Source: Moraxella sp. (GTDB lineage: Bacteria > Pseudomonadota > Gammaproteobacteria > Pseudomonadales > Moraxellaceae). From it: DNA of 44,821 bases. Positions 21,362 through 37,838 of the stretch are shown here, piece by piece. Where the stretch lies: contig JAUMUJ010000016.1 in NCBI GenBank assembly GCA_030530785.1, positions 1 to 44,821 of the forward strand. The letters run 5' to 3'. The notes below the pieces were generated by a model that saw only the letters and a program-made list of their open reading frames with translations, had not been told where the DNA came from and did no database searches. Every line of letters begins with the position of its first letter. The stretch's first letter is position 1. The translations under genes were made by a program, and so were the position numbers.

Positions 21362-21392
21362 TTGTTTTTTTTTTTTGATGTTGTGTTACAAT
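21362..21392 (+). promoter_or_regulatory. Putative promoter of the CRISPR effector operon with a T12 spacer tract
   Basis: TTGTTT (21362-21367) and the extended -10 TGTTACAAT (21384-21392) flank a 19-base spacer. A run of twelve Ts (21365-21376) begins inside the -35 hexamer and fills most of the first half of the spacer. Transcription would start near 21399, just ahead of the AAGGAG at 21410. The identical TGTTACAAT precedes xseB and tonB in this window. Length change of the tract would alter promoter spacing. Confidence 0.5.
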
Positions 21393-21421
21393 GCCAAAAA
21401 TTGAGCATTAAGGAGATGATG

Positions 21422-22552
21422 ATGAAAAACGTATTATTTTTGGTAACAGGTATGACCCCACAAATCATCACTGAGACGGTGTGGGCGTTGGCGTGTGACC
21501 CTGCTTTATCAGATGATGAGCGGTTTGTGCCTGATGAGATTTGGGTTTTGACCACTGAACATGGGTCTAACCTTATCAATACCCGCTTGTTTGAAAAAGG
21601 GATTTTTGAGCAGTTTAAAAAGGATTATCCGATTTTATCGCACATTCAATTTGATAAAAATTCTGTGTACGTGATTGAAAATAATCAAGAAAAATTATCA
21701 GATTTAAAAACACCGCTGGATAACGAATTGACCGCTGATTTGATTTGCCAAAAAGTACGTGAGTTCACCCAAGATGACGATACTCGCTTACACGTCTCTA
21801 TCGCAGGCGGGCGTAAAACGATGGGTTTTTACGCAGGTTATGCCCTGTCGCTGTATGGACGCAGTCAAGACACGATGTCGCACGTTTTGGTGAGTGGTGA
21901 GTTTGAAAATGTGCCAGATTTTTATTACCCCACAACAGACAGTAGAATTATTACCAATAATAAAGGCGAATCGTTGGATACCAAAAATGCCAAAGTTTGG
22001 CTGGCTAATATTCCCTTTGTGCGTATGAGCGAAGCCATTTCTGATAAGCACCAGTTAAAACAAGGAGCGAGTTTTAGTGAAGTGGTTGAAGTGATTAACC
22101 GTTCTTTTGAGCCTATTACGCTCACTTTGTTTATTAAAAAAAGACTTATCCAAATCAACGAGCAAGAGCCCAAAAAACTAAATCCCATTAATTTTGCTTT
22201 TTTGCATTGGTTTTGCGATTATCATTTGCAAGGCAAGGGAATTAAAGCTCCAACCAATAATAAGACTGATTACGCAACTGACGAAATTGCCAAAAATAAA
22301 TTTGCAGAAATTTCAAAAGAGTTTAATCGTTATTATGAATATCAAAAAGCTGTCGCTGAACAACTGGTGGACAAAAAATTCTTTATAGAAACCAAGTCAA
22401 AACTTTATAGTAAATTAGTGGAAGTTTTGGGTGGTTTGGAGTTGGCAAATCGTATCATGCCCATTAAAAATGAGCAAACAGATGAGTTTTGCTTACCAAA
22501 ATCTTTAAAGGTGATAATCAATGATGGCAAAGAGATGAAAAAGGAGAAGTGA
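21422..22552 (+). CDS. CARF-domain CRISPR accessory protein (Csm6 / NE0113 family)
   Basis: A 376-residue protein whose N-terminal half is a CARF (Rossmann-like) domain that would bind cyclic oligoadenylate made by Cas10. It starts MKNVLFLVTGMTPQIITETV, matching the opening of the TIGR02584/NE0113 family, and has the ligand-loop motif HVSIAGGRKTMGF at about residue 125. The C-terminal part (about 230-376) is charged and probably helical; it begins with LNPINFAFLHWFCDYHLQGK. I see no R-x4-6-H HEPN ribonuclease motif, so RNase activity of the classical Csm6 type is doubtful; ring-nuclease or sensor roles are alternatives. Three ATGs in a row follow AAGGAG; 21422 has the best spacing (six bases). 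Its TGA overlaps the cmr1 ATG. Confidence 0.8.
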   Translation: MKNVLFLVTGMTPQIITETVWALACDPALSDDERFVPDEIWVLTTEHGSNLINTRLFEKGIFEQFKKDYPILSHIQFDKNSVYVIENNQEKLSDLKTPLDNELTADLICQKVREFTQDDDTRLHVSIAGGRKTMGFYAGYALSLYGRSQDTMSHVLVSGEFENVPDFYYPTTDSRIITNNKGESLDTKNAKVWLANIPFVRMSEAISDKHQLKQGASFSEVVEVINRSFEPITLTLFIKKRLIQINEQEPKKLNPINFAFLHWFCDYHLQGKGIKAPTNNKTDYATDEIAKNKFAEISKEFNRYYEYQKAVAEQLVDKKFFIETKSKLYSKLVEVLGGLELANRIMPIKNEQTDEFCLPKSLKVIINDGKEMKKEK

Positions 22553-23754
22553 TGAAATTACCCCAATTTAACAACAGACCCACGCCACTAAGGGCGACTT
22601 ACCATATCAATACGCCCATGTTTGTGGCAGGGGCAAACCAAAATGAAGCCGAATTGACACCCACGTCTTTTAAGGGGGTCTTGCGGTTTTGGTGGCGTGC
22701 TTTAAACTGGTCGCATATCCGCCTAGAAAGCCCAAACAAAGAACACGCCCTAAAAGAGCTACATGAGCAAGAAGCCAAATTGTTTGGTGTTGCCAGTAGT
22801 GATGTTCGTACCCAAAAGAAGCTACATAATGGGCAGGGTGCTTGTTTTGTTAATGCGTTGTCATTATCAGGTGGTAGAATATGGAATTACACCCAAAATC
22901 AATCAGGGGTAAATTATCTGTTGGGGCAAGGTTTGTTTAGGGGTAATTTGATACGAAAGGCATTTGCTCAGGGTCAAACCTTTACGGTGGATTTGACGGT
23001 CGGCGACGATGTGCAAGGCATTCAAGATGTGTTGCGACTTATTGGGTTGCTAGGTAGTTTTGGCTCACGTTCTCGGCATGGGTTTGGTTCGGTAACGCTG
23101 ATAGAGCTTGCTTGTAAAAACATCGGCGATGATGAGTATCAGTCCATTGCCTTTGAACAAGACCTAAAAACCGCTTTAACAGAACTTTTTAAGAGATATC
23201 GTTGTCGTGAGAATAAAGAGCTACCGCCTTTATCGGCTTTTTATCAAGACACTAGGGTTGACATCGTTGGCAATGGCAACAAAGACGCACTAGCCATTTT
23301 AAAAGATATGGGCGATGAAGAGCAGATGTATCGCAGTTTTGGTAAAGACGGCATGGTTGGTAGGCAGACAGCTGAGAAAAATTTCAAAGATGACCATGAT
23401 TTTGCTCTAAATCTATTCAAGCCAAAGCCTAATACTATCACGCACCCAAAAAGAGTGGTATTTGGGTTGCCCCATAACTATTTTTATTCAGGCAATAGTA
23501 CTCGTCATAGTGCCAATATGGACGCTGATACAGGGCGTAGGGCATCGCCATTATTTCGCCATGTGCATAGATTGGCAAATGGCAATCATCAAGCGGTGTT
23601 ATGTCTGCTTAAAAGTGAGTTTTTGCATGAGCAATCACGGATTGATATTGTTGCCAAAAAAGATAATAACCGCAAAAAGCTATCTGTATCAGCAAATGCA
23701 GATTGGCAAACCATTACAAACTTGATGAATCGTTTTAATGGAGAGGCTTTATGA
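22552..23754 (+). CDS. cmr1: Type III-B RAMP protein Cmr1
   Basis: A 400-residue Cas7-like subunit that caps the 3' end of the crRNA in the Cmr complex. The N-terminus has the Cmr1 pattern LRATYHINTPMFVAGANQNE and LTPTSFKGVLRFWWRALNW. A glycine-rich RAMP loop, LLGSFGSRSRHGFGSV, is near residue 170. The C-terminal half contains a second RAMP-like region that includes VFGLPHNYFYSGNS. ATG 22552 overlaps the previous TGA and has AAGGAG at 22541-22546. Its own stop overlaps the cas10 start, so translation is probably coupled. Confidence 0.93.
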   Translation: MKLPQFNNRPTPLRATYHINTPMFVAGANQNEAELTPTSFKGVLRFWWRALNWSHIRLESPNKEHALKELHEQEAKLFGVASSDVRTQKKLHNGQGACFVNALSLSGGRIWNYTQNQSGVNYLLGQGLFRGNLIRKAFAQGQTFTVDLTVGDDVQGIQDVLRLIGLLGSFGSRSRHGFGSVTLIELACKNIGDDEYQSIAFEQDLKTALTELFKRYRCRENKELPPLSAFYQDTRVDIVGNGNKDALAILKDMGDEEQMYRSFGKDGMVGRQTAEKNFKDDHDFALNLFKPKPNTITHPKRVVFGLPHNYFYSGNSTRHSANMDADTGRRASPLFRHVHRLANGNHQAVLCLLKSEFLHEQSRIDIVAKKDNNRKKLSVSANADWQTITNLMNRFNGEAL

Positions 23755-25883
23755 ATAATGATAAAAAATACTTCCATTTTACCTTAGGACCAGTGCAAGG
23801 GTTTGTGGCACAGGCACGGCGTACCAGAGATTTTTGGGCGGGGTCATTTTTGTTGTCGTGGCTCGCTGGCGTGGCAATACAGGCGGTTAAGGTGCAGGGC
23901 GGACAGGTCAAATTTCCCATTCCTGATGATAACTTTTTACAAGCGATTGCCACAGGTCAAGCGACAACCTTGCCACGGCAGGGCGGTATCCCAAACCGCT
24001 TTATGGCGGACATTACCGAATGTAGTGATTTTAGCGGTCAAGCGGTGGTAGGTGCGGTAAAAACCGCTTGGCAGGCAGTGGCGGACAGCGTGTGGGAGCA
24101 TGACAGACAAGGGCTTGAACAGGCAGACTACCCTACCAAAACCATTTGGGAGAGACAAAATGCCAAGTTTTGGGATATGACTTGGGTTATCACGCAGGGT
24201 ACCGATACCAGTGCATTGGATAAACGCAAAAATTTCCGCACGCACATGGCATCGGTAGAGAGTGGTTATAAGTGTATGATGATGGAAGGCTATCAGGAGC
24301 TAAGTGGGGCTAGTGATAAAAATAGCGGTGATAAACGCCGAGCCTATTGGACGAGCCTAAAATATCATGCCGATATTGGGCTTGATTTGAGAGACGGCGA
24401 AGAGCTGTGTGCGATAGCCTATATCAAACGCCGTTTTGTGCATATTTTTAATAAAGTCAAACAAAGCATTGACGTTAATGGCAAGTCCATTATGGTGCAT
24501 GGCTGGCAGTTGCCCCATAACGTGCCGTCTGTGGCGTATATGGCAGGCGTGCCTTGGCTAAAAAAGGTGATAAAGGCGGACGATGAAGGGTCTAAACTGT
24601 TTGATGAGTTTTTGTTAAGTATTGATGAAATAACACGTCAGACATCATACCGCTTGCCAAAATCCGAAAGCAAAAACCATGTTTACAGCATTCAGCAAAG
24701 CGTGGATAAAAAGACCTTAAAAGAGCTAAGTTTGGACGGTAATATTTATTTTAGTACTCATTGGGAAAATCTAAACAATCTGGTGGGCGATAAAAACAAT
24801 TATGACGGACGCATTGATGAGTATTTGCCAAAAATCAAACGCAGTCTAAGGGCGGTGTATGAGTCATTGGGTGAGCCGTCCCCTTATTATGCCATTTTGC
24901 TGATGGACGGCGACAGTTTGGGTAAACAGATGAGCGAATCAGAGCGTCAGCCCATTATCAGCCATGCCCTAAATGATTTTACCAAACAAGCCCAACAAGT
25001 TGTCAAAGAGCATGACGGATTTTTGGTATATGCAGGGGGCGATGACGTGCTTGCGTTATTTAGCCTAGATGATGCCATGCGTGCTGGCGTGGCACTACAA
25101 CAATGCTACAAAGACTGTTTTGGCAACGCAAGTGAAAAACATGGTAAAGGCAAGGGCGACAATGGTTCGGACGTGGTTGTGCATTCTACCTTGTCAGGGG
25201 CGATAAATTATTGCCATATCGGCACGCCACTTACCCATGTGTTAATGGATAGTCATGATTTATTGGATAATATCGCCAAAGACGGTACAGGCAGAAATGC
25301 CCTAGCGGTGCGAGTGCACAAACCGTCAGGTCAAGCGGTGCAGTGGTCATTGCCTTGGGATAAGGTGCTTGATAAGGACAGTTTGCAAACACTCAATAAG
25401 CAATTTGGTTTTGATGACGAAAATACCCCTGTCATAGAAGCACTTGCCCGAGCAATGAGTGGGCAAAAATTGACAAATGAGACAATTAACGAACAAAAGC
25501 TGATAGATGAAACGATGAGTGAGCAAAAGTCGGCAGATAAGGTATCGCCATTTTCCACAGGGTTTTTTTATAAAACCCGTCATCTCATGGGTATGCTTAA
25601 TGAGATGATGCTAAAAAATGAGTTAAATGCAGATGATGCTACCAGTTTGTTGTTGGCAGAATATATGCAATCGGGCAATTTACGCAAAATTAAAGAAGAT
25701 AAGCAAAAAAAGTTACTGAGTATCTTTAAAGTACTGATTGAGCAAAGCAAAGACTACCGTTCAAAGATTGATGACGGAAAAGCAACAATTGATGATAAGT
25801 CTGGCAAAAAATTAACAGGCGATGCGGGTATTTTGCTAAGAATTCTGGGACAAAAAGGGCTTGGTAAAGGAGATAAATCGTGA
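23751..25883 (+). CDS. cmr2: Cas10/Cmr2, cyclase subunit without HD domain
   Basis: Large subunit of the type III-B complex, 710 residues. The cyclase/palm domain has the metal-binding LLMDGDSLGK (Asp 386) and YAGGDDVLALF (GGDD at 429-432), which makes cyclic oligoadenylates when target RNA is bound. The protein opens directly with the first palm motif, FTLGPVQGFVAQARRTRDFW, at residue 10. In Pyrococcus furiosus Cmr2 the matching segment comes after about 230 residues of HD domain, so the HD DNase is absent here. No CxxC zinc ribbon is seen either. The last ~100 residues are helical (Cmr2 D4-like). A short degenerate repeat (TNETINEQKLIDETMSEQK) sits at about 575-595. Confidence 0.94.
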   Translation: MNNDKKYFHFTLGPVQGFVAQARRTRDFWAGSFLLSWLAGVAIQAVKVQGGQVKFPIPDDNFLQAIATGQATTLPRQGGIPNRFMADITECSDFSGQAVVGAVKTAWQAVADSVWEHDRQGLEQADYPTKTIWERQNAKFWDMTWVITQGTDTSALDKRKNFRTHMASVESGYKCMMMEGYQELSGASDKNSGDKRRAYWTSLKYHADIGLDLRDGEELCAIAYIKRRFVHIFNKVKQSIDVNGKSIMVHGWQLPHNVPSVAYMAGVPWLKKVIKADDEGSKLFDEFLLSIDEITRQTSYRLPKSESKNHVYSIQQSVDKKTLKELSLDGNIYFSTHWENLNNLVGDKNNYDGRIDEYLPKIKRSLRAVYESLGEPSPYYAILLMDGDSLGKQMSESERQPIISHALNDFTKQAQQVVKEHDGFLVYAGGDDVLALFSLDDAMRAGVALQQCYKDCFGNASEKHGKGKGDNGSDVVVHSTLSGAINYCHIGTPLTHVLMDSHDLLDNIAKDGTGRNALAVRVHKPSGQAVQWSLPWDKVLDKDSLQTLNKQFGFDDENTPVIEALARAMSGQKLTNETINEQKLIDETMSEQKSADKVSPFSTGFFYKTRHLMGMLNEMMLKNELNADDATSLLLAEYMQSGNLRKIKEDKQKKLLSIFKVLIEQSKDYRSKIDDGKATIDDKSGKKLTGDAGILLRILGQKGLGKGDKS

Positions 25884-27076
25884 GTGATGTGGTGATAAAG
25901 TTTGAGCCTGTGGACACATGGTTTTTTAGAGAATCTCGTCCGCATGGGAGTGTGGGAGCGAACGCCTTAAACTCAGTATTTCCGCCACCTGTGCGGACAC
26001 TCATGGGGGCGGTGCGTTCGTGGATTGGCAATGAGTATCTTACCAAGCAACGGCAGTCTTGGGATAATCTTGCCAAATTGCCTGAGCTTACTGCTGTGAT
26101 TGGCAACGAAAAACAGCTTGGCAGTATCAAACCCCGTGGGGCGTTTATTGCTGATGACAGTGGCGATAAGACGGCTTATTATTTGCCCATGCCTGTCAAT
26201 GTCTGTACCAAAAACGATGACAAGGCGATTTATTTGGCGTTTGATTTGACCCAAGAATGTTTTGAGACAGACATTGGCAATATCAGATTGCCAGAATTAC
26301 CCAAAAAAGACGGCACAGACACCGCAGGTTTTAAACCTATGGAAAACACGTGGCTATCCAAGACGGCGTGGGAGCGACTGTTGGCAGGTGATTTGTTAGC
26401 GTTAGATCAAGACAGGGCGGTATGTCAGCAGAGCGATTTTTTGACGCAAGAATATCGGCTAGGCATTGAAATTGATAAACATCGCCAAGTCCAAGACAGC
26501 AAACTTTATCAAACCACGCATTTGCGATTAAAGCCTGATATTTCGGTCATGTTACCAGTTCATTATAATGCCGATGATTTGAAAGTTTTAAATCAAAAGC
26601 TAGACGGCAATCCGCTTGTGCGTGTGGGCGGTGAAGCTCGTATGGCAAGTTTGGGGTTTGGCTCGGCAGATTATTTGCCAAATGCCCCAAAGACGATTGG
26701 CAAAGTGGTCAATGGCAAAAAACGCTTTATGCTGTATCTTTTGACAAAATTACCTGTCAAAGATGACTGGCTACCTGTGGGATTTGCCCCTTGTGAGCAA
26801 GGATTTGCAGGCGTGGTGCGTGGTGTTAGTATGACCATGATTTCAGCGTGTATCGGTAAGGCTCATCGTGAAGGGGGCTGGAATCAGCTCACGCACGAAC
26901 CCCGAGCCATTGAAAATCACCTACCCGCAGGCAGTGCGTTTTTTGTGGAAGTGGATAACGATGTATCTGATGATGAGATACGAGCCTTGCACGGTCAAAC
27001 TTTTTATGACAAAGATGATGACTATCATAGCCAAGATTGGGGTTATGGGGTCATGCTTGTCGGTCAAATTTTGTAA
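25880..27076 (+). CDS. cmr3: Type III-B RAMP protein Cmr3
   Basis: A 398-residue Cas5-like subunit that binds the crRNA 5' handle and contacts Cas10. The N-terminus FEPVDTWFFRESRPHGSVGA, followed by FPPPVRTLMGAVRSWIG, is diagnostic for Cmr3. A glycine-rich stretch, VGGEARMASLGFGSA, lies near residue 255. Translation begins at GTG 25880, overlapping the cas10 stop, with AAAGGAG ten bases upstream. A second glycine motif, VRGVSMTMISACIGK, and a C-terminal WGYGVMLVGQIL follow. Confidence 0.92.
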   Translation: MSDVVIKFEPVDTWFFRESRPHGSVGANALNSVFPPPVRTLMGAVRSWIGNEYLTKQRQSWDNLAKLPELTAVIGNEKQLGSIKPRGAFIADDSGDKTAYYLPMPVNVCTKNDDKAIYLAFDLTQECFETDIGNIRLPELPKKDGTDTAGFKPMENTWLSKTAWERLLAGDLLALDQDRAVCQQSDFLTQEYRLGIEIDKHRQVQDSKLYQTTHLRLKPDISVMLPVHYNADDLKVLNQKLDGNPLVRVGGEARMASLGFGSADYLPNAPKTIGKVVNGKKRFMLYLLTKLPVKDDWLPVGFAPCEQGFAGVVRGVSMTMISACIGKAHREGGWNQLTHEPRAIENHLPAGSAFFVEVDNDVSDDEIRALHGQTFYDKDDDYHSQDWGYGVMLVGQIL

Positions 27077-27095
27077 TTTTTATTAAGGATTTTTT

Positions 27096-27962
27096 ATGTC
27101 TAAATTAATGATGAATATGGTTGCCCAAACGTCAATCCATGCAGGGGCAGGACAGGCGATGAGTGTGATTGATTTGCCTATTCAGCGTGAAGGGCATACC
27201 ATGCACCCTGTGATTTTTGGGTCTAGCATGAAAGGAGCGTTGCGTTTTCATGCCAAAAAAACCACCGAAAACGACAAGATTTTGGCGGTATTTGGGGCGG
27301 ATTCAAATGCAGATGATACCCATGCAGGGGCGGTAATGATTAGCGATGCCAAATTGCTGTTATTGCCTGTGCGTTCATTAAATGGCTACTTTAAATGGGT
27401 AACTTGCCCTGCCTTGTTACGCCGTTATCTTAAAGACTGTCAGCGTGTGGGTGTTAAAGATGTTTTTGAATTGCCTGATTTGAGTGCGTTAAAACTTGAT
27501 AATGTCTGTGTGATTGATAACAAATACGGTACAGTGTTTTTAGAAGAATTTGCCTTGACCACAATCACGGCAGGTTTGGATAAAGTGAGTGAAACTCTTG
27601 CCAAAGATTTTAATTTGGATAAATCCGCCTTAGACAGTCAGCTGTGTGTGGTTAGTGATGACTTATTTAGCTATTTGGCTCAAAACAGCACGCCTGTCAA
27701 TGCTCATATTGCCTTAGATGATAACAAGACGGTCAAAGTAGGGGCATTGTGGTATGAAGAGACCCTACCGCCAGAGACGGTCATGTACAGCGTCATTCAA
27801 TGCACCAGTTCACGCAAAAAAGGGCTGGATTTGAATGCCGATGAAGTGGCATTTATTTTACAATCTATGTTTGGCAACGAGCCATTTTTACAAGTGGGTG
27901 GCAATGAAACGGTCGGTATGGGCTGGTTTGAAGTAAAATTTGTTCAGGGGGTGAATTCATGA
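27096..27962 (+). CDS. cmr4: Type III-B RAMP protein Cmr4 (backbone ribonuclease)
   Basis: A 288-residue Cas7-like backbone subunit, present in several copies per complex, that cuts bound target RNA at 6-nt intervals. The N-terminus HAGAGQAMSVIDLPIQREGH places an aspartate at residue 26, the position of the catalytic Asp in P. furiosus Cmr4. The RAMP motif IFGSSMKGALRFHAKK, the DAKLLLLPVRSL strand and a C-terminal VGGNETVGMGWFEV glycine loop are present. It begins 19 bases after cmr3, the largest gap in the cmr cluster, with AAGGA upstream, and overlaps cmr5 by four bases. Confidence 0.95.
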   Translation: MSKLMMNMVAQTSIHAGAGQAMSVIDLPIQREGHTMHPVIFGSSMKGALRFHAKKTTENDKILAVFGADSNADDTHAGAVMISDAKLLLLPVRSLNGYFKWVTCPALLRRYLKDCQRVGVKDVFELPDLSALKLDNVCVIDNKYGTVFLEEFALTTITAGLDKVSETLAKDFNLDKSALDSQLCVVSDDLFSYLAQNSTPVNAHIALDDNKTVKVGALWYEETLPPETVMYSVIQCTSSRKKGLDLNADEVAFILQSMFGNEPFLQVGGNETVGMGWFEVKFVQGVNS

Positions 27963-28420
27963 GCACAAAAAGCGTTGTGGTAAAAAAGGGTGATAATACA
28001 GATGATGTTTTGCAATCAAGAGACCAAAAGCGTGCCAAACACGCCCTAGATAACGTACAAAAATTGGTCAATGACAATCAAGACGGTCAAAAATTCAAAT
28101 CTGCTGTCTCTGGCTTGCCTGCCATGATTCATAGCAATGGTTTAGGTCATGCGTTTGCGTTTTATCTTAGCGACCCAAGCAAATTTCCAGAGCGTGAAAA
28201 AATTACTGAAATTGTGTTTGATTGGCTTAAAGAAAGTGGCGTGTATGGTGATGATGTTAAAAATGATAAAGATGAGAGATTTAACGCCCTAAATATCGTT
28301 ACTCAATCGGATTTAAAAACACACCTTATCGCCCAACAAGAAGCCCAAGCATATATTTTGTGGTTAAAAAAGTTTGTGCGAGCATTGTTTGCCGAGCCAA
28401 CACAAAAGCAGGGGGAGTAA
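27959..28420 (+). CDS. cmr5: Type III-B small subunit Cmr5
   Basis: A 153-residue, mainly alpha-helical protein forming the minor filament along the target RNA. SRDQKRAKHALDNVQKLV near residue 21 and the Lys/Gly-containing IHSNGLGHAFAFYLSD helix are typical Cmr5 features. The C-terminal helix ILWLKKFVRALFAEP also matches. It overlaps cmr4 by four bases and its stop abuts the cmr6 ATG, so it is part of one translationally coupled block. Confidence 0.9.
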   Translation: MSTKSVVVKKGDNTDDVLQSRDQKRAKHALDNVQKLVNDNQDGQKFKSAVSGLPAMIHSNGLGHAFAFYLSDPSKFPEREKITEIVFDWLKESGVYGDDVKNDKDERFNALNIVTQSDLKTHLIAQQEAQAYILWLKKFVRALFAEPTQKQGE

Positions 28421-29722
28421 ATGTTACCGATTTATAATTCTGCCAAAACTTATCAAACTGCCCAAGAGATTTTTGGCGACCATAGCCATTCAGGATTGTG
28501 GTTTGAGCGGTTTTATGATTATTTGATTTACAAGGAAAGCGGTCATTTTGTTGATTTAAATGATGCCGAACGCTTGCTCTGTGATGAAAAGGATAAAGAA
28601 AAAAAGCGTTTATTGGGAGAGTTTGAAAGAGATGAAAGGCAATCTAAGGGTAAGAAAGAGAGCAAAATAATCAATTATGCTCATAAAAAAGGTAAGCGGT
28701 CATTTATCAAATCCATTGGTACAAAAGATGGTAAAAGAGAATGTGGCAATGATAAAGCCCTATCCGCCTATGCCAAAAGAATGGCAAAGCTATGTCAAGC
28801 CAATCGTGGCAAGGTGTGCGTATATAAAAATGACTGGCTTGTCGCCATTGGTTTGGGTAATAGCCACCCCCTAGAAAATGGACTGCTATGGCACCCAACG
28901 CTTGGTGTGCCGTATTTTCAAGGCAGTACGGTCAAGGGCATGGCGCGAGCATTGATGACGGCATGGGGAGCGGACGAGAATATTATTACCAAATGGTTTG
29001 GTTCGTCCAGTGCGGACGGTCAGACGGGTGATTTTGTATTTTTGGATGCTGTGCCTGTGTCGTCTGTCATGCTAAAAGAAACCCTTGCCACCCCACATTA
29101 TGGCGATTGGTATCTAAAAGGGGCGGATAACCCAACCGATAAAAGCGTACAGCCTGCCGACTGGCATTCGCCTGTGCCTGTGGGATTTTTGGCGGTGGAA
29201 AAAGCCGTCATGCAGTTTGGGGTCATGCCACGACAAGGGGCAAGCGTCAGTGATGATGAGATTGAGCAGATTAACAACGTCATCGCACTTGCGTTAGAGC
29301 ATATTGGTATCGGTGCAAAAACCGCAACAGGCTATGGGCGAATGGTGGTTGATGAAAGTAGCAATCACAAAATGCAAAAAGAGCTTGAAGAAGAAAAGGC
29401 TTATTTGGAACAGCGAAAAGTGGAATTAGAAGCTCAGAAAAAGCTACAAGAAGCCTTAAAAAATGCCAGTGAGATTGAAAAACAACTTGCAACACAGATT
29501 TTAACTCATCAATGGGAAAAGGCGGATAATGCGGTCAAAGAGAGCTTTACTCAGTCTATCAGTGATTGGCTAGATAAATTAGAAGCTGACCCCAATCCAC
29601 AAGCGGTTGCAAGATTTGTGCAGATTGCTCATATCCATTATCCTGCCCAAATGAAAAGACCAGATAAAGCAAAGCCAAATCAACAGGTTTGGATTAAGCG
29701 ATTATTATCACTGAAACAATAG
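28421..29722 (+). CDS. cmr6: Type III-B RAMP protein Cmr6 with C-terminal helical extension
   Basis: A 433-residue RAMP subunit located near the 3' end of the crRNA. The central region has the Cmr6 signature GLGNSHPLENGLLWHPTLGV followed by PYFQGSTVKGMARALM (about residues 145-185) and a glycine loop, IGAKTATGYGRMVV, near 300-312. After the RAMP fold, roughly 120 residues remain: a charged coiled-coil-like helix (ELEEEKAYLEQRKVELEAQK) and then a further helical region ending in basic residues. That tail is not a normal part of Cmr6. The N-terminal 130 residues are also charged and Lys-rich. It starts directly at the cmr5 stop. Confidence 0.92.
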   Translation: MLPIYNSAKTYQTAQEIFGDHSHSGLWFERFYDYLIYKESGHFVDLNDAERLLCDEKDKEKKRLLGEFERDERQSKGKKESKIINYAHKKGKRSFIKSIGTKDGKRECGNDKALSAYAKRMAKLCQANRGKVCVYKNDWLVAIGLGNSHPLENGLLWHPTLGVPYFQGSTVKGMARALMTAWGADENIITKWFGSSSADGQTGDFVFLDAVPVSSVMLKETLATPHYGDWYLKGADNPTDKSVQPADWHSPVPVGFLAVEKAVMQFGVMPRQGASVSDDEIEQINNVIALALEHIGIGAKTATGYGRMVVDESSNHKMQKELEEEKAYLEQRKVELEAQKKLQEALKNASEIEKQLATQILTHQWEKADNAVKESFTQSISDWLDKLEADPNPQAVARFVQIAHIHYPAQMKRPDKAKPNQQVWIKRLLSLKQ

Positions 29723-29731
29723 AGGTACAAC

Positions 29732-30931
29732 ATGAATACACAAGTATGTATCGCCACAGGTCAGCCATTGGCGAATTTGATTGCATTATTGCATTTTAAG
29801 CCACAAAAAGTGATTGTTGTGGCAACCGAATCCATGAAACAAAACGCCAAAAATTTCAAAAAAATCCTAAACGATTTGGAAATTGAGAGTGTGTATATTG
29901 CAGATAGTTGTCCTGATACAGATTTAGCAAAAATATCAGAGTTTTTAAAGGAAAAGGTTTTACCAAAACTGCCCAATGAAAGCTGTATTTTTAATCTCAC
30001 GGGGGGTACAAAACTGCATAGTTTCTCTATGTATGAAGCATTTAAGGCTCGCCACCAAGATGATAAATTCATCTATGTAGATACCAATAACCGCCTAATT
30101 GAACACTATCCAACCGCTCATCATGCGTCTTTCAATGAAGTCCTGCCATCTGTCTTAACCGCACAGATGACCTTAAAGGGTATGGGTAAAAAATTTATCA
30201 CAGCAGAATCTGATAAAGAAGATTGGGCAGATGAAGTATTACAAAGCGAAGAACTAACCTATTTTATTGCCAATAATATTAACGATGAAAATGTTAAGCA
30301 GTTAATTGGCGATTTAAATGGTATTATTGGTAAGCTTTATAATGGCGGTAAAAGCTTTGTTCTTGACAGTAAGCAGGGTGAATTACACCAAAAACCCAAA
30401 GGACTTGCCAGAGGCTTGCTAGAAAAGGCTCATGATTTGAAACTCATTACTTGGCACGCTGGCAGTGGCGATAGAAAGATAAGTTTTGACTGTTATGCAC
30501 AAGCACGATATCTATCAGGGATTTGGCTTGAAGAATATGTGTGGTTTGTTGCATCCAAGATGGACTTTGAAGAAGTGTATAGTGGACTAAGATTTGGCAA
30601 TCAGGCGGATAATGAGATAGACTTATTTATCCAGCACCAAAATACCGCATTGGCGATTGAATGTAAATCAGCCACCAGTACAAAAAACTCTGCAATTAGC
30701 CAAGATATGTTTCATAAGCTAAACAGTGTGGCAAATCGTGCCAGTGGGTCGCTGTGTCATAAGTTGTTTGTGTCAGCATTTCCCCTAAAAACCAAAAACG
30801 GTAATGATTTGCCATCTGTCAATCATGCTAGAGAGCAAGGTATTAAGATTGTGCAAGCACAGGATATTGTAGAAAATCTGCCTAAGTTATTGGCAAACTG
30901 GAAAGAAAAGGGTAGATTATCCATGAAATAA
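29732..30931 (+). CDS. card1: CARF-nuclease effector, Card1/Can2-like (DUF1887)
   Basis: A 399-residue ancillary effector predicted to be activated by cyclic oligoadenylate (cA4 in characterised relatives) and then to nick DNA and/or RNA. The N-terminal CARF domain (about 1-145) includes IFNLTGGTKLHSFSMYEAF. A linker/helical domain follows. The C-terminal PD-(D/E)xK nuclease domain shows LEEYVWF, then NEIDLFIQ with Asp 297 and LAIECKSA with Glu 310 and Lys 312, the D-(x)12-ExK signature. It begins 9 bases after cmr6 with AGAGG upstream and is followed by a strong terminator. Confidence 0.88.
   Translation: MNTQVCIATGQPLANLIALLHFKPQKVIVVATESMKQNAKNFKKILNDLEIESVYIADSCPDTDLAKISEFLKEKVLPKLPNESCIFNLTGGTKLHSFSMYEAFKARHQDDKFIYVDTNNRLIEHYPTAHHASFNEVLPSVLTAQMTLKGMGKKFITAESDKEDWADEVLQSEELTYFIANNINDENVKQLIGDLNGIIGKLYNGGKSFVLDSKQGELHQKPKGLARGLLEKAHDLKLITWHAGSGDRKISFDCYAQARYLSGIWLEEYVWFVASKMDFEEVYSGLRFGNQADNEIDLFIQHQNTALAIECKSATSTKNSAISQDMFHKLNSVANRASGSLCHKLFVSAFPLKTKNGNDLPSVNHAREQGIKIVQAQDIVENLPKLLANWKEKGRLSMK
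30890..30918 (+). promoter_or_regulatory. Possible internal promoter ahead of csx16
   Basis: TTGGCA (30890-30895), a 17-base spacer and TAGATT (30913-30918) lie within the 3' end of the Card1-like gene. Transcription would begin near 30925, ahead of the hairpin at 30957-30990. Weak -10 match; tentative. Confidence 0.3.
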
Positions 30932-30956
30932 GCTTACATTCCCCCACATCTCATCC

Positions 30957-30990
30957 AAAAAACGTCATAATATCCCATTATGACGTTTTT
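30957..30990 (+). terminator. Strong hairpin between the effector block and csx16
   Basis: The arms AACGTCATAAT (30961-30971) and ATTATGACGTT (30977-30987) pair perfectly around a 5-base loop. They are extended by A-tract/T-tract pairing and followed by Ts. It would end or attenuate transcription after the Card1-like gene. Confidence 0.85.
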
Positions 30991-31003
30991 CATAGGAAGT
31001 TTT

Positions 31004-31312
31004 ATGACCACTTATTTTATCACTCGCCACATTGGTGCATTGGATTGGGCAGGTGAAAATGGTGTGCATTTTGACGTGCATTTGTCTCATTTGTTAGATT
31101 TTGATGAATTAAAGTCAGGCGATGTCATTATCGGCACATTGCCCGTCAATATCATCAGCCAAATCAACGAATTGGGCGTGCATTATATTCATCTGTCATT
31201 AACCATACCGCCCCATTTGCGTGGCGTGGAGCTAACCGCCGAGCAGTTGGACGAATGTCAGGCAACCCTAGAAGAGTTTTATGTCAAAAAATTGGCAAAA
31301 ATCATCACTTAG
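31004..31312 (+). CDS. csx16: CRISPR-associated protein Csx16, probable ring nuclease
   Basis: A 102-residue protein of the Csx16 (VVA1548) family. Csx16 relatives have been described as ring nucleases that degrade cyclic tetra-adenylate and switch off the antiviral response. The sequence opens MTTYFITRHIGALDWAGENG (the family's ITRH-GA-W pattern). It then has a central GDVIIGTLPVNIISQINELG and a C-terminal IPPHLRGVELTAEQLDE block. The start ATG 31004 has AGGAAG at 30994-30999; in-frame sequence upstream overlaps the terminator hairpin. It is separated from the effector block by that hairpin and starts the second gene block. Confidence 0.88.
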   Translation: MTTYFITRHIGALDWAGENGVHFDVHLSHLLDFDELKSGDVIIGTLPVNIISQINELGVHYIHLSLTIPPHLRGVELTAEQLDECQATLEEFYVKKLAKIIT

Positions 31313-31320
31313 GAAAAATC

Positions 31321-32481
31321 ATGAATGAATTTGAATTAGCATTTCATATTGATAAAATTGCCCGATTAAAACATTTGGGCAAATGTGAAGAGTTGCGAAC
31401 CTATGTCTCAAAACAGCCCAATGACATAAAAGCCCAACTAAATGTTTGGGTAAGTCAGGTATTGTCTAGATTGCAAAACGATGATATTAAGGATAAATTG
31501 CCACTTGCCAACCAACATAGCATAGACGGCTGGCAGGCGTTTTATGGTCATGATTATCATCAGGCACTGGATTTGTTTAATCAAGCGATGAATGAGTCAA
31601 ACTGGCAACAGGCCACCCCAGATAGTAGTTTAGGCGTGGCAAAGGTCTATACTCGTACAGGGCATTGGCAGTTGGCAAAAGCGTGGTGCTTGTATTATTT
31701 GACATTGGCTAGGCGGTCTTTATGTCATTTTGATATGGCAAAGGGCTATGGGGCGTTGGCAGAGATATTTTTGCGAGCCAATGCACCCAAAGAAGCGTTA
31801 GGCTGTTTTCAAATGGCGTATCATCTCATGCCACTACAAAGTGGGCAAAAGGCACGCCAATATAACTTTATGGCGTCAGCACTGTTGCGTCATGGCGAGT
31901 TTTTGCGAGCGGAAGCCTTGCTGTATTCTAGCCATCAGGAGATTGAGCGGGCGTTATTGGTAGAGCCCGAGCTTGTGGAATACCAAGCAGGACTGTTGCA
32001 TTCGCAAATGCGTTTTTCGTTTTTAGCGGTGTTGTCAGGTGGGGCGGTATCACCATTCGTGGATTTGGACAATATCAACCAAGCATCTGCTGTGGGTCTA
32101 AAAACCATGCCAAGCGGTATGCTGTGGGTGGTACATGGCATTTATAGCCTAAGCCAAAATGACCTAAAAAAGGCAAGCGATGAGTTTTATCAGGCGATGA
32201 TGATTTTTGAAGGTCGGTTGTTGTTTGAATATCTGTGGGCAAGTCGCCTGTATCAGTATTGCCAAAAAATACAAGGCACGGATTATCAAGTATGTGATAC
32301 AACCGTCAAAAAAGCCCAAGCGGTATTTGGCATAGAGCAAATCAATCCGCCCCAAACTCCTATCGTATTTGACCAGACGTGGCAAAATGTAGAGTTGCAT
32401 AATCAAGGGTTTGTACAATTATTGCAAGATGATTTGGATAAGCAAGCATTGATTGATGTATGGCAACAATTTTTTATTTGA
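31321..32481 (+). CDS. TPR-like helical protein of unknown function in the cas locus
   Basis: A 386-residue soluble protein I do not recognise. From ATG 31321 (AGGA site upstream) it reads as an all-helical, Ala/Leu/Tyr/Gln-rich protein. Helix pairs resemble tetratricopeptide repeats: WQAFYGHDYHQALDLFNQAM, VYTRTGHWQLAKAWCLYYL, ALAEIFLRANAPKEALGCFQ and GIYSLSQNDLKKASDEFYQA. No signal peptide, membrane segment or catalytic motif is visible. It begins eight bases after csx16 and ends 18 bases before the SDR gene, so it lies in one operon with both. A scaffold or partner-binding role is inference. Sequence composition resembles that of neighbouring host genes. Confidence 0.75.
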   Translation: MNEFELAFHIDKIARLKHLGKCEELRTYVSKQPNDIKAQLNVWVSQVLSRLQNDDIKDKLPLANQHSIDGWQAFYGHDYHQALDLFNQAMNESNWQQATPDSSLGVAKVYTRTGHWQLAKAWCLYYLTLARRSLCHFDMAKGYGALAEIFLRANAPKEALGCFQMAYHLMPLQSGQKARQYNFMASALLRHGEFLRAEALLYSSHQEIERALLVEPELVEYQAGLLHSQMRFSFLAVLSGGAVSPFVDLDNINQASAVGLKTMPSGMLWVVHGIYSLSQNDLKKASDEFYQAMMIFEGRLLFEYLWASRLYQYCQKIQGTDYQVCDTTVKKAQAVFGIEQINPPQTPIVFDQTWQNVELHNQGFVQLLQDDLDKQALIDVWQQFFI

Positions 32482-32499
32482 CGAACAAAAGGTAAAATC

Positions 32500-33231
32500 A
32501 TGAAATTTAATGACGTAAATAACAAAACAATCATTGTAACAGGTGCTGGCGGTGGCATGGGTCGGACGTGCTGTGAATACCTAAGCGGTCTAGGGTTTCA
32601 CGTTTTGGCGATTGATTGCCATGAGGAGAGATTGTCATCAGTGGCAAATGACAAGACAAAAACGCTGTGCGTGGATTTGTCTGATGAGACGTTGGTAGAG
32701 CAGGTGAAGCAGGCGTTGGTAGGTTTACCGCCTGTGTGGGGGCTTGTCAATCTGGCGGGGATTTCGGTGGGCGATACGGTGGATAAATTATCGCTTGATG
32801 ATTGGCAGTTGTCTTTTAATGTCAATGTAACGCCTGCGCTACGTTTAACTCAGCTTGTTGCCCCGATAATGAAACGAGCAGGCGGGGGTAGTATCGTCAA
32901 TGTCAGCTCGCCTGTGGGCTATATCGGTGCTAGAAAGCCAAGTTATGCCACCAGCAAATCCGCCTTGCATGGTCTGACCGCAAGCTGTGCCAGAAATCTA
33001 GGGGCGGACAATATCCGTGTTAATCTACTGCTACCAGGTACAACCATTACTGAGATGACCAAAGATTGGAGTGTGGAGCGTCAAGCGTCCATTGCCAGAG
33101 AAAGTCTGCTCGGCAGGCTATGTACGCCCCAAGAAATCGCCGAAGGGATTGCATTTTTGTTAAGTGAACATAGTCGCTATATGTCAGGAGCGATTTTGGA
33201 CATGACCTGTGGTAGTATGTGGGGGCATTGA
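32500..33231 (+). CDS. Short-chain dehydrogenase/reductase embedded in the cas operon
   Basis: A 243-residue NAD(P)-dependent oxidoreductase of the classical SDR type. It has the cofactor loop VTGAGGGMG (residues 13-21), a NLAGIS motif near 84 (NAG variant), Ser 136 in VNVSS and the catalytic Tyr 149/Lys 153 in PSYATSKSALHG, so all active-site residues are present. The acidic Asp 39 in LAIDC at the end of the second strand favours NAD(H) over NADP(H). The substrate is unknown; relatives act on sugars, steroids and acyl carrier protein adducts. It lies between the TPR-like gene and the Gfo/Idh/MocA gene (one base gap), in the same direction as cas6-cas2-cas1-cas2. Confidence 0.9.
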   Translation: MKFNDVNNKTIIVTGAGGGMGRTCCEYLSGLGFHVLAIDCHEERLSSVANDKTKTLCVDLSDETLVEQVKQALVGLPPVWGLVNLAGISVGDTVDKLSLDDWQLSFNVNVTPALRLTQLVAPIMKRAGGGSIVNVSSPVGYIGARKPSYATSKSALHGLTASCARNLGADNIRVNLLLPGTTITEMTKDWSVERQASIARESLLGRLCTPQEIAEGIAFLLSEHSRYMSGAILDMTCGSMWGH

Positions 33232-33232
33232 T

Positions 33233-34237
33233 ATGAATACACCGATTAGGGCGGTTATTTTTGGATTGGGTAATCAAGCATTTGAACATTTGGATGCGAG
33301 TGTGGGTCATGCAGATGTTCAAATCATTGCAGGGATTGACGGTAATACCAACCGCCACAAAGAAGTGTGCGAGCGTTTTGGCGAGTTAAACTTACAGTGC
33401 TTTCAGTCACTTGATGAATTAAAGAAGAGCGGGTTGGTGTTTGATGCATTGATTTTGGCATTGCCCCACGATGTCTATGGCAGTATTTGGGCAGATATTT
33501 TGGTGTTGGGCAAGCCTTTATTAAAAGAAAAACCACTAGGGCGAGATTATCAAGAAGCCAAAACCTTTATGGATACCGCTCACAAGGCTCATTGTGGATT
33601 ACAAACTGCCATTCAACGCCGTCAGCATGCCAGCTATCAGTTTTTGGTACAATTTTTACAAGAAAATAAAATCAAAATCCAAGAATTGCACGCCCATTTG
33701 CATTTGGGCAAGGGCTTGCAAGTTCCGACTGATGAGCCTGATTTAAAATGGCGTGGCGACCGCCAAAAGGCAGGCGGTGGAGCATTGCTTGATGCAGGCT
33801 ATCATTTGGTGGATTTAGTGCAATTTATCGTGGGCGATTTTGATGTGGTATCTGCGACCATGTACAATGGTATGCAGGTGGATAATGGCATTGACATAGA
33901 AGACAGAAGCTGGCTTATGGGGTGTACGCCTGATGTGTGGATTATGCTTGATACATGGGTCAAAGGCGAACCAAATGACAAGGGTGGATTTGCCAAATCC
34001 GAAGCGGTGGAGTTATTGACTGATAAAGGATTGTTAAGGGCAAATCGTGAAGGCGTATGGCAAGATGACGTACAGATTTTTGCCACCGAAAGCAAGTGGC
34101 AAGAGGCGATGAGAAGACAGCTCACTGATTTTGCAAATAATATCCGCACCCAAAACTGGCATACAGACGTGATATGGCACCAACTGCCCGCCATGCGAAC
34201 GATTGACAAAGCCTATTGGTTATCAAAAAGCTACTAG
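33233..34237 (+). CDS. Gfo/Idh/MocA-family oxidoreductase embedded in the cas operon
   Basis: A 334-residue NAD(P)-dependent dehydrogenase of the glucose-fructose oxidoreductase/inositol dehydrogenase family. The N-terminal Rossmann fold starts IRAVIFGLGNQAFEHL and includes the conserved KEKPLGRD (Lys 100 of the EKP motif). The C-terminal alpha/beta domain has WRGDRQKAGGGALLDAGYHL, in which Asp 187 and His 191 are the usual catalytic pair. Substrates in the family are sugars, inositols, amino-sugar nucleotides or biliverdin; none can be chosen here. It starts one base after the SDR stop and ends eight bases before cas6, so it is surrounded by CRISPR genes. Confidence 0.9.
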   Translation: MNTPIRAVIFGLGNQAFEHLDASVGHADVQIIAGIDGNTNRHKEVCERFGELNLQCFQSLDELKKSGLVFDALILALPHDVYGSIWADILVLGKPLLKEKPLGRDYQEAKTFMDTAHKAHCGLQTAIQRRQHASYQFLVQFLQENKIKIQELHAHLHLGKGLQVPTDEPDLKWRGDRQKAGGGALLDAGYHLVDLVQFIVGDFDVVSATMYNGMQVDNGIDIEDRSWLMGCTPDVWIMLDTWVKGEPNDKGGFAKSEAVELLTDKGLLRANREGVWQDDVQIFATESKWQEAMRRQLTDFANNIRTQNWHTDVIWHQLPAMRTIDKAYWLSKSY

Positions 34238-34245
34238 GGGCAAGC

Positions 34246-35094
34246 ATGATTACTATTACCCGCTACCGTATTAGCTTTTGTGCTGATGATGACATACATT
34301 TGCCAAGTTATGCAGGTTCTGCCTTGCGTGGGGTATTTGGACACGCCCTAAAATCTATGGCTTGCCCTACCGCCCATGGTAAATCTTGCCGTTGTCAGGC
34401 AGATTGCCTATATCGCACGCTGTTTGACCCGCCAAAGAGCCACATACAGGGTCGTGAGCAGGACGTGCCACCGCCTTTTATCATAGAAGCTCACAGCTTG
34501 CCACGCCATATCAGGTCGGGGCAGACGGCTTATTTTTATATGACGCTCATCGGTAAAGTCGCTCACGGCGAACAGATTATGATAGAGCTGGCGTGGAGAC
34601 GAGCATTATCAATGGGCTTTGACCAAAAAGACAAAACCAAAGTGACTGCCAAATTTATCAGCATGAAAAAATTTGATGCACCCGACACGCCCATGCCGTC
34701 CACCACACTTATCCTAGATTTGCTGACACCCACTCGGATACAACATCATGGCAAAATTTTAAATGCTCATGCTTTTAACGCCACGCTATTTTGTCAGGCT
34801 CTGATTCGCCGTTGTGTGCAGTTGTCAGAAATCTATGGCGACAAAATCAGCGATGATGAAAGAGCGTTAATTTATCAAGATATAGATGATGTTGTAGGTC
34901 ATTTTAACCTTAGTCGTCAGACGTGGACTCGGTTTTCGCACCGTCAGCACCAAGCCATCGCACAAGATGGCGTGATGGGGTGGGTTGAGTTATGTGGCGT
35001 GAGTGATAGACTGTATCATTATCTGTATCTGGGGCAGTGGCTACACATCGGTAAGGGGGCGGTATTTGGGCTTGGGCAATATGTCATAAGATAG
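34246..35094 (+). CDS. cas6: Cas6 family pre-crRNA endoribonuclease (RAMP, PF10040-like)
   Basis: A 282-residue RAMP protein expected to cleave the repeat RNA and leave an 8-nt handle (ATTAAGAC here). The opening RYRISFCADDDIHLPSYAGS with ALRGVFGHALK matches the Cas6 subgroup with LYRTLFDPP. A cysteine cluster (C-x7-C-x-C-x3-C, about residues 40-55) could bind a metal. The C-terminal LHIGKGAVFGLGQYVIR is the glycine-rich RAMP loop. ATG 34246, with AGGGG upstream, is preferred over the in-frame GTG at 34216 that overlaps the previous gene. A His near the N-terminal third may be catalytic but cannot be assigned with confidence. Confidence 0.85.
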   Translation: MITITRYRISFCADDDIHLPSYAGSALRGVFGHALKSMACPTAHGKSCRCQADCLYRTLFDPPKSHIQGREQDVPPPFIIEAHSLPRHIRSGQTAYFYMTLIGKVAHGEQIMIELAWRRALSMGFDQKDKTKVTAKFISMKKFDAPDTPMPSTTLILDLLTPTRIQHHGKILNAHAFNATLFCQALIRRCVQLSEIYGDKISDDERALIYQDIDDVVGHFNLSRQTWTRFSHRQHQAIAQDGVMGWVELCGVSDRLYHYLYLGQWLHIGKGAVFGLGQYVIR

Positions 35095-35105
35095 GAAGAG
35101 ATGGC

Positions 35106-35372
35106 ATGATGGATTATCTGTTGGCGTATGATGTGAGTGATGAGTGTGTTCGTGAGCGGGTGTGTCGGCTGTTAAAAAATCACAGCATTTCACATCAAAA
35201 ATCCGCCTACGAATGCTCACTGACCATCTCACAAAAAAGCCGTCTGACATCAGACACGAAGCAGATGATTGACGATGATTTTTGTGTGTTTGTGATTAAA
35301 AACCATCATTGGCGACATCAGCCTAAGCCAAATACGATCGTGATTGGTGATGAGTGGCTGTATGTCGGCTGA
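35106..35372 (+). CDS. cas2: Cas2-like protein, first copy
   Basis: An 88-residue ferredoxin-fold protein of the Cas2 family, partner of Cas1 in spacer integration. It starts MMDYLLAYDVSDECVRERVC, with the family aspartate at residue 9 in YDVSD. It continues HQKSAYECSLTIS in the place of the usual Q-S-V/A-F/Y-E motif. It has 11 bases to cas6 and 17 to cas1. It is about as divergent from the second copy at 36369 as unrelated Cas2 proteins are, judging by eye. Confidence 0.85.
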   Translation: MMDYLLAYDVSDECVRERVCRLLKNHSISHQKSAYECSLTISQKSRLTSDTKQMIDDDFCVFVIKNHHWRHQPKPNTIVIGDEWLYVG

Positions 35373-35389
35373 TAAACGGGGGAGTGATG

Positions 35390-36352: not shown

Positions 36353-36368
36353 AATAAGGGAGTGTGCC

Positions 36369-36674
36369 ATGCCGTATAAAGAACAGAGCGGTAAGCATTT
36401 TTTAATATGTTATGACATCGCTTGCAAAAAACGCCTAGCCAAAGTCCAGCGATTGATTGGCAATCATGCCATACCCATACAGCGTTCGGTGTATTTTGCC
36501 ACGCTTAGGGTGTCGCAGATGGACGACATCATTGCACAACTAAAACCACTGCTGACCAACAAAGATAGCGTGAATGTCTATGAAACCCAAGCCCTAGAAA
36601 AAGCTGAGATTTATGGTAATCGCTCGGCATTGGTTCGGTTGTTTGGCGAAAATGGTGATGAAATTCATTGGTGA
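36369..36674 (+). CDS. cas2: Cas2-like protein, second copy
   Basis: A 101-residue Cas2-family protein. After a short basic N-terminus it has HFLICYDIACKKRLAKVQRL, with the family aspartate (about residue 16) in YDIA, and AIPIQRSVYFATL in the place of the Q-S-V-F/Y motif. The C-terminus is longer than that of the first copy. ATG 36369 has AGGGAG upstream. It is the last cas gene, and the array leader begins directly after it. Two Cas2 proteins flanking one Cas1 could form a heterodimer, or one could be a toxin-like or vestigial paralogue. Confidence 0.85.
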   Translation: MPYKEQSGKHFLICYDIACKKRLAKVQRLIGNHAIPIQRSVYFATLRVSQMDDIIAQLKPLLTNKDSVNVYETQALEKAEIYGNRSALVRLFGENGDEIHW

Positions 36675-36899: not shown

Positions 36900-37838
36900 G
36901 TTCAAAACTTTCCCTGTTATAAAAGGGATTAAGACTTATAAAGATACTTCTTGATCTGTGCCCAGTACGTTCAAAACTTTCCCTGTTATAAAAGGGATTA
37001 AGACAGTTCTAGCTACTACCTTAGCTACTGACTCAAAAGTTCAAAACTTTCCCTGTTATAAAAGGGATTAAGACATCTTACCAGGATTATTATCCATGAA
37101 CTCCTGAGTTCAAAACTTTCCCTGTTATAAAAGGGATTAAGACTTAAATATCCCTGTGCGGTCGGTGTTTACTTCGTTCAAAACTTTCCCTGTTATAAAA
37201 GGGATTAAGACTTGTACAAATTCTGACACGTCGTGTAAAGCATACGTTCAAAACTTTCCCTGTTATAAAAGGGATTAAGACCTTAGTTCGGATACCTGTT
37301 TGAGGTACATAGGTTGTTCAAAACTTTCCCTGTTATAAAAGGGATTAAGACGAATAACGTCTGTTGGAAATAGTTGCTATCGGGGTTCAAAACTTTCCCT
37401 GTTATAAAAGGGATTAAGACCCAAGCAAAAACCTGTGGATAACTCACGATTTTGGTTCAAAACTTTCCCTGTTATAAAAGGGATTAAGACATAGCCATTT
37501 TAATTCTCCTATAAAATTGTTTAGGTTCAAAACTTTCCCTGTTATAAAAGGGATTAAGACTTGTAAGAACCACTTAAAACGCCTACCGCGGCCGGTTCAA
37601 AACTTTCCCTGTTATAAAAGGGATTAAGACTACCCATGGTATCTACTACAGCATATACAGTAGTTCAAAACTTTCCCTGTTATAAAAGGGATTAAGACAG
37701 AATTGACCGCCCAAGCTCAAAAGGGCGACATTGTTCAAAACTTTCCCTGTTATAAAAGGGATTAAGACAAGTCGGGGTGTACCCCCACCAGATTTTTTAA
37801 GCGTTCAAAACTTTCCCTGTTATAAAAAAGATTTCACC
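36900..37838 (+). CRISPR. CRISPR array, 14 repeats and 13 spacers, type III-B
   Basis: Thirteen identical 36-bp repeats (starting GTTCAAAACTTTCCC and ending GGGATTAAGAC) and a 14th terminal copy at 37803-37838 whose last 11 bases are degenerate. Repeat starts: 36900, 36969, 37039, 37108, 37176, 37246, 37316, 37385, 37455, 37525, 37595, 37663, 37733, 37803. Spacers are 32-34 nt and all different. Degeneration at the right end and the leader on the left give a + strand transcript, so crRNAs would carry the 5' handle ATTAAGAC. Confidence 0.98.

Follow-up and report, generated by a model that had tools for sequence, protein, structure and literature searches.

Type III CRISPR responses include nucleases, membrane pores, proteases and the loss of NAD+, and are switched on through CARF or SAVED sensors and off through ring nucleases. 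In the 44,821-nucleotide stretch of Moraxella sp. DNA analysed here (hereafter the window), three genes were found between csx16 and cas6 of a type III-B locus, encoding a tetratricopeptide repeat (TPR)-like protein, a short-chain dehydrogenase/reductase (SDR) and a dehydrogenase of the Gfo/Idh/MocA family (Gfo). The Csx16 family is described as a ring nuclease specific for cyclic tetra-adenylate (cA4), the ring of which it opens (PMC12409355). The csx16 gene of the window (open reading frame [ORF] 30980-31312, + strand) scored above the cut-off of both family models (PF09652, 100.7 bits against a cut-off of 25; TIGR02620, 97.9 bits), and relative to the type III-B neighbourhood reported for this nuclease, the three genes (the trio) represent an added module. 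We consider it very probable that csx16 and the TPR, SDR and Gfo genes constitute a real csx16-linked module.

Among described ancillary proteins, the closest in setting are the CARF/SAVED effectors Card1, Csm6/Csx1 and Cat1, as the trio lies in the same loci, beside such effectors and together with a Cas10 bearing the GGDD motif. Unlike these effectors, the trio proteins displayed no CARF, SAVED or nuclease domain, and thus no cyclic-oligoadenylate-binding domain of the kind that defines CARF/SAVED ancillary effectors. None of the three belonged to a PADLOC family, and no CARF model was present among the Pfam and NCBIfam matches listed (for the SDR, 25 of 221 NCBIfam matches). The terms 'oxidoreductase', 'dehydrogenase' and 'TPR' do not occur in the main text of PMC12409355, nor do the first two in the main texts of PMC11229360 and PMC10910872. 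A description of an SDR/Gfo pair in type III loci was likewise not found among the titles and opening parts of abstracts listed, a mention in supplements or subscription papers being possible. By linkage the gene set ranks as a type III ancillary module; we found no description of its content anywhere, and it lacks the sensor by which known effectors are defined.

The genes csx16, TPR, SDR, Gfo and cas6 share one orientation (+) and are separated by 8, 18, 1 and 8 bases. The order, direction and spacing given in a preliminary description of this DNA were thus borne out by the ORF coordinates, those of the TPR, Gfo and cas6 genes being counted from inner ATG codons of the ORFs as listed. For csx16, a start at 31004 (31004..31312) is more likely than one at 30980, judging from an AGGA upstream and from homologues that begin with MTTYF or similar. 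The TPR-like protein (386 aa; 31321..32481, +) fell short of the family cut-off on its own (TPR_12, 20.7 bits against 30.1, E-value 4.7e-4); when aligned with its relatives, all five rows, that of the window included, matched each of three TPR families at E ≤ 0.1 (best E-value 1.4e-7). Against profiles of solved structures it gave weak matches only (best E-value 0.019).

The second gene (243 aa; 32500..33231, +) encodes a classical SDR (PF00106, 144.8 bits, cut-off 26.6) with a TGxxxGxG motif and an N-S-Y-K tetrad (N109/S137/Y149/K153). It shares these features with FabG and 3-alpha,20-beta-hydroxysteroid dehydrogenase (best solved relative 2hsd, E-value 2.1e-30), but is set apart by the motifs PGTTITEM and TCGxMWGH, which are invariant in 7 of 7 aligned trio SDRs, and by an identity of no more than 37 % to the 15 plasmid matches listed. 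The third (334 aa; 33233..34237, +) combines the Rossmann and C-terminal domains of Gfo/Idh/MocA proteins (PF01408, 44.6 bits, cut-off 24; PF02894, 38.7 bits; PF22725 also over its cut-off) with the residues K100, D187 and H191, a triad which we take to be catalytic, as in inositol dehydrogenases. It thereby shares fold family and K-D-H residues with glucose-fructose oxidoreductase and the inositol and glycoside dehydrogenases (best solved relatives by sequence, 1evj and 1ofg), the nearest solved relatives acting, by title, on sugars, inositols and glycosides. Its identity to generic relatives was ∼20-33 % among the matches listed for the order and 25-31 % among the plasmid matches listed. The catalytic residues named earlier for both enzymes (SDR Tyr149/Lys153; Gfo Lys100/Asp187/His191) are therefore all present, and the active-site residues were invariant in 7 of 7 aligned SDR and 7 of 7 aligned Gfo rows, as well as by eye in the most distant relative, G1207. 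An Asp after the second strand suggests, by the usual rule, a preference for NAD(H); its presence as D39 in the SDR and D36 in Gfo suggests that both enzymes use this cofactor.

Recurrence beside csx16

The first relatives were met through csx16, which was present in 13 of 199 genomes of the window's family (Moraxellaceae) and gave G814 (Moraxella bovoculi 237), G855 (Psychrobacter sp. GP33) and a remnant in G847. Other loci came from searches with Gfo, using the single window protein in 390 genomes of the order, and profiles in 348 genomes of the family, 398 of the phylum, 185 of the window's class and 78 of the class of G1207; these samples overlap, and the profiles include rows from G814 and G855, both first met via csx16. 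Ten loci were thus assembled, eight with all three genes and two remnants (G847 and G025), every one of them being recovered by the Gfo searches. They span three genera of the Moraxellaceae (that of the window and M. bovoculi; Psychrobacter, with G855, G1055, G1060 and G1045; and a third represented by G985), with the G847 remnant in the same family, another family of the order (the G025 remnant) and another class of the phylum (G1207), such that co-localization with type III genes in unrelated genomes was found in two classes. The reappearance of the arrangement in other genera and in a second class points to more than chance. Sought near type III cas genes in other genomes, as had been suggested, the trio proved neither limited to one strain nor located mainly away from cas genes, and within the genomes searched every member of the Gfo clade that turned up had csx16 nearby. 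Insertion in a single strain is ruled out by these ten loci.

The Gfo proteins of these loci stand apart from generic relatives. Scores in the family search fell from 496 bits to 128 for the G847 remnant, and then to 57 for the next protein, a generic Gfo; in a tree with 27 generic rows, eight rows from these loci formed one group (support 100/99). Two other searches added no locus: a plain peptide scan of genome contigs with two short exact patterns, which is no census, recovered the loci of M. bovoculi and Psychrobacter GP33 and no other, and the TPR-like protein alone found only the window among 369 genomes of the class.

In all eight full loci the SDR gene is directly followed by the Gfo gene, whilst the positions of TPR, csx16 and the cmr genes are shuffled around this pair. 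The TPR gene precedes it in seven full loci and follows it in G1207; in G1045 the trio comes after cmr6, and in G847 the end of Gfo is left after cmr6, with what we read from the frames as the beginning of a TPR gene ahead of it. Throughout this reordering csx16 lies within 5 kb of the module (10 of 10 loci), including all six loci found via Gfo alone (G1055, G1060, G1045, G985, G025 and G1207). It adjoins the module on the upstream side in the window, G814 and G985, and on the downstream side, in convergent orientation, in G855, G1055 and G1060; the distance is 2.6 kb in G1045, 4.5 kb in G847 and 1.5 kb in G025. In G1207 a single gene separates csx16 from the SDR gene, a small AAA_33 P-loop kinase-like gene that touches both (L108:10010-10399).

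Within the 199-genome family sample, csx16 occurred in four of four genomes with the trio or a remnant versus 9 of 195 others (Fisher p 1.1e-5), the four other trio genomes of the family being assumed to lie outside that sample. For comparison, 51 generic Gfo loci were inspected with 6 kb of flanking DNA on either side, contig ends permitting (four stretches were shorter than 9 kb); csx16, the TPR gene, Cas10, cas6, cas1, Card1 and CARF5 were absent from all of them, and four held a distant SDR (25-28 % identity). As a positive control, the csx16 query recovered csx16 in eight of eight family regions supplied. Cas10 was detected in 8 of the 10 genomes (seven of nine with the window protein, and G1207 with PF22335); the matches in G814, G1060 and G985 were weak and partial, with those of G814 and G985 confirmed separately. 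A CARF5/NE0113 gene was located 0.3 to ∼21 kb from the module in all nine loci with enough DNA (the G1060 stretch is 6 kb long, and in G1207 the gene is in pieces); as six of the nine csx16 loci that lack the trio also have it, it is not specific to the trio.

Carriage by plasmids or phages was considered and rejected, as only distant or zero matches were found in plasmid and phage records. The TPR-like protein matched neither; the window Gfo gave only distant matches, in eight plasmid records and one phage record, and the Psychrobacter GP33 Gfo matched 69 plasmid records, all below 60 % identity. For the SDR, a search of plasmids and not of phages gave at least 5000 records, again all below 60 % identity. 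Four pattern scans of viral contigs returned no relative.

Exchange and selection

The window and M. bovoculi 237 have a block in common (30926..∼34500, +; right edge approximate), as delimited by nucleotide identity per 200-base bin, which starts at the end of the preceding gene and ends inside cas6 (34246..35094, +; PF10040, 54.9 bits, cut-off 25), the first part of cas6 falling within it by the identity profile. Identity is 0.84-0.94 in bins 31000-34400, 0.81 in the next bin and 0.63-0.75 thereafter. The gene before the block is Card1 in the window and a CARF-HEPN Csx1 in M. bovoculi, and the presence of different effectors beside the same block argues for a link to the signal and not to one effector. 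Between these two loci Cas10 is only 27 % identical. More generally, the four genes csx16, TPR, SDR and Gfo have diverged in parallel (r 0.88-0.98 between their pairwise identities), versus values of −0.20 to 0.08 against Cas10 (6-28 pairs per comparison).

CRISPR repeats stand on both sides of the csx16-trio block in G985 (L097:12322-19789) and G1060 (L094:10-6124). In G985 a pair of genes including an AlkB-like oxygenase also lies between the repeats, as if ancillary cassettes sat between arrays. With a crude repeat finder, arrays were located no more than 5 kb away in 8 of 10 loci, and recombination between repeats is a plausible route by which the block could be exchanged.

Comparison of the window with M. 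bovoculi yielded low ratios of nonsynonymous to synonymous substitution (dN/dS) for SDR (0.11), Gfo (0.10) and csx16 (0.15). The M. bovoculi TPR gene is a pseudogene, with seven frameshifting indels as well as in-frame stops, whereas SDR and Gfo contain no frameshift and no in-frame stop, the only indel noted being a 9-base in-frame deletion near the active-site motif of Gfo; at the rate seen in TPR, ∼10 frameshifts would be expected in the two genes by our own arithmetic. As SDR and Gfo are intact where TPR is broken, the pair seems to be retained independently of TPR, which is probably not an obligatory scaffold. The scaffold role previously assigned to the TPR-like protein is thus, if taken as a required one, not supported in M. 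bovoculi 237, and the same pseudogene rules out the trio as one obligate complex. The damage in G1060 (TPR and the end of Gfo) and G1207 (Gfo) may be real or may be draft sequencing error.

Between the Card1-like gene and csx16 lies a perfect 14-bp inverted repeat with an A/T tract (30958..30990), which looks like a terminator or attenuator and is kept in M. bovoculi although the preceding gene differs. When six other upstream stretches were folded, no such T-tailed hairpin was seen, by our own reading, at the same place. A promoter and terminator scan of 29600-37000, altogether a weak guide, gave 26 promoter-like sites (17.4 in shuffles, sd 3.5) and 9 terminator-like sites (7.3 in shuffles, sd 2.5), and did not list the hairpin. 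Because of this terminator-like element before csx16, the placing of the trio 'inside the CRISPR operon' by the preliminary description holds for position and direction, but not for a single transcript with the cmr genes.

Proposed role and alternatives

Our explanation as a whole, which we put forward tentatively, is that of an ancillary module which passes horizontally between type III-B loci and in which an SDR-Gfo NAD(H) pair accompanies Csx16 and TPR is optional. It is founded on recurrence, co-divergence, the block beside different effectors, intact catalytic residues and low dN/dS. The earlier view, in which the genes form a redox module coupled to the type III response and are not random cargo, is upheld as far as linkage is concerned, with csx16 near every locus, Cas10 in most of the genomes and a link that survives reordering, and is not supported as to TPR as a required scaffold. 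That redox chemistry is the function of the module seems probable. The retained catalytic residues, together with solved Gfo relatives that act on sugars, inositols and glycosides, point to two successive NAD(H)-dependent redox steps by SDR and Gfo on one polyhydroxylated (sugar- or nucleotide-like) substrate, which would appear, or need removal, while cA4 signalling is on. As it is csx16, and no single effector, that the genes accompany, we infer that these steps would be tied to cA4 turnover. The pair may conceivably act alongside the ring nuclease Csx16 in the clearing or recovery arm of the response, a placement that we favour only with reserve, with the TPR-like protein as an optional adaptor.

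A more specific version, which we regard as improbable, would have SDR-Gfo act on the ribose of adenine nucleotides freed by cA4 signalling (e.g. linear oligoadenylates from Csx16) by successive oxidation and reduction; a nucleotide pathway would also accommodate the kinase-like gene that separates csx16 from SDR in G1207. If true, this would give a CRISPR system, for the first time to our knowledge, a redox branch dedicated to nucleotide modification, resulting in irreversible signal clearing or in a modified, chain-ending nucleotide. Even in the general form, a conserved and apparently active pair of sugar-type oxidoreductases following csx16 across loci would add intermediary metabolism to type III responses, and raises the question of the chemical fate of cyclic oligoadenylates, or of the metabolites they disturb, once the ring is opened.

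Several observations weigh against the exchanged-module explanation. No Cas10 was detected in G855 and G025, two of the 10 genomes with the module or a remnant, and 9 of the 13 csx16 genomes of the family showed no trio within the DNA retrieved around csx16; csx16 thus works without the trio, which is one option among several beside it. The module is often damaged, with frameshifts in three of eight full loci in addition to the two remnants. In the Gfo tree some branches are long, including one that joins the group of eight, and the identity correlations partly track species relatedness, the Cas10 comparisons resting on 6-10 pairs. At the level of the proteins, Pfam, NCBIfam and PADLOC scans revealed no CARF/SAVED or other signal-binding domain in TPR, SDR or Gfo, and the Asp that hints at NAD(H) preference is missing from the G1207 SDR. 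Lastly, adjacency is the sole guide to the choice among clearing, repairing and poisoning, any of which the module might perform.

The frequent damage would also fit a costly effector, and the trio could be imagined as cA4-dependent, draining NAD(H) or making a toxic or antiviral metabolite, with csx16 kept as its off-switch. Ring nucleases can indeed pair with effectors, PADLOC holding a model for a CARF-HEPN-Csx16 fusion, and another type III effector, Cat1, is reported to act on NAD+ (PMC12162218). The lack of a CARF/SAVED sensor in those same scans, and the intact SDR and Gfo of M. bovoculi beside a broken TPR, nevertheless render such an effector unlikely. Cargo of a metabolic kind, carried along with the defence island but devoid of an immune role, is, in our estimation, a doubtful alternative: the enzymes do belong to generic superfamilies with no substrate assigned, and the arrays that flank the block in two loci could carry any cargo, but proximity to csx16 in 10 of 10 loci versus 0 of 51 generic Gfo loci, a link kept across classes despite rearrangement, identities that correlate highly with csx16 and almost not at all with Cas10, and the lack of clade members away from csx16 in the genomes searched all speak for a specific association.

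TPR proteins often bind partners, and this, along with the adjacency to csx16 and the Rossmann folds, could be taken to mean that the trio proteins are not metabolic enzymes but bind NAD(H) as sensors or regulators acting on Csx16 or Cas10; we judge this very unlikely, given full catalytic sets in 7 of 7 aligned rows that a mere sensor would not need. No more probable is a Cas10-independent defence unit of csx16 and the trio with CARF5, for example together with the operon encoding VWA, PP2C and kinase proteins in G855 and G025. Both of these Cas10-less loci do carry CARF5/NE0113 with VWA, PP2C and kinase genes (L063:5853-12199 and L062:9077-14072), and CARF5 is near the module wherever enough DNA is available. 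Its presence beside csx16 without the trio, however, deprives it of specificity, Cas10 is found in the large majority of the genomes, G025 keeps only a Gfo remnant and the G855 and G025 genomes yielded no source of cyclic oligoadenylate.

The surrounding locus

Upstream of the block, the window contains a CARF5/Cas_NE0113 gene (21362..22552, +; PF09623, 149.3 bits), a run of Cmr (type III-B) genes (22549..29722, +) with Cmr3-6 identified by family searches, and a Card1/Can2-like CARF-PDDEXK effector (29732..30931, +; PF23400, 49.2 bits; PF09002, 44.1 bits; PADLOC CARF4). The first gene of the run encodes a RAMP protein named Cmr1 from its position (22549-23754, +), and is followed by Cas10/Cmr2 with an intact GGDD motif (23751-25883, +); Cmr3 was under the cut-off of TIGR01888 and over that of PF09700. 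Downstream of cas6 are cas2 (35106-35372, +; PF09827, 41.2 bits), cas1 (ORF 35354-36352, +; PF01867, 199.4 bits) and a CRISPR array with 14 copies of a 36-nt repeat, the last of them degenerate (36900..37838). With Cmr2/Cas10 alongside Cmr3-6, the locus is of type III-B, and the combination of a GGDD Cas10, a Card1-like nuclease and CARF5 upstream with cas2, cas1 and an array downstream leads to the prediction that it signals via cyclic oligoadenylates.

Further genes recur in these islands. A second Cas2-family gene follows cas1 in the window (36339-36674; PF09827, 43.0 bits) and has relatives in four other loci. An AlkB-like 2-oxoglutarate-Fe(II) oxygenase (PF13532) and a methyltransferase-like gene (weak Pfam match, E-value 0.007) form a recurring pair in trio islands (L046:14934-16544; G1045, L095:994-2745; G847; and G985, L097:17376-18979), the methyltransferase-like gene being present in 6 of 18 csx16 loci compared, five of the six with the trio or a remnant. 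Finally, a four-gene set, one member of which belongs to the thymidylate kinase family (PF02223, 35.4 bits), was found in six csx16 loci, five of them without the trio (L057:5655-8482, with matching genes in G770, G832, G835, G917 and G985).

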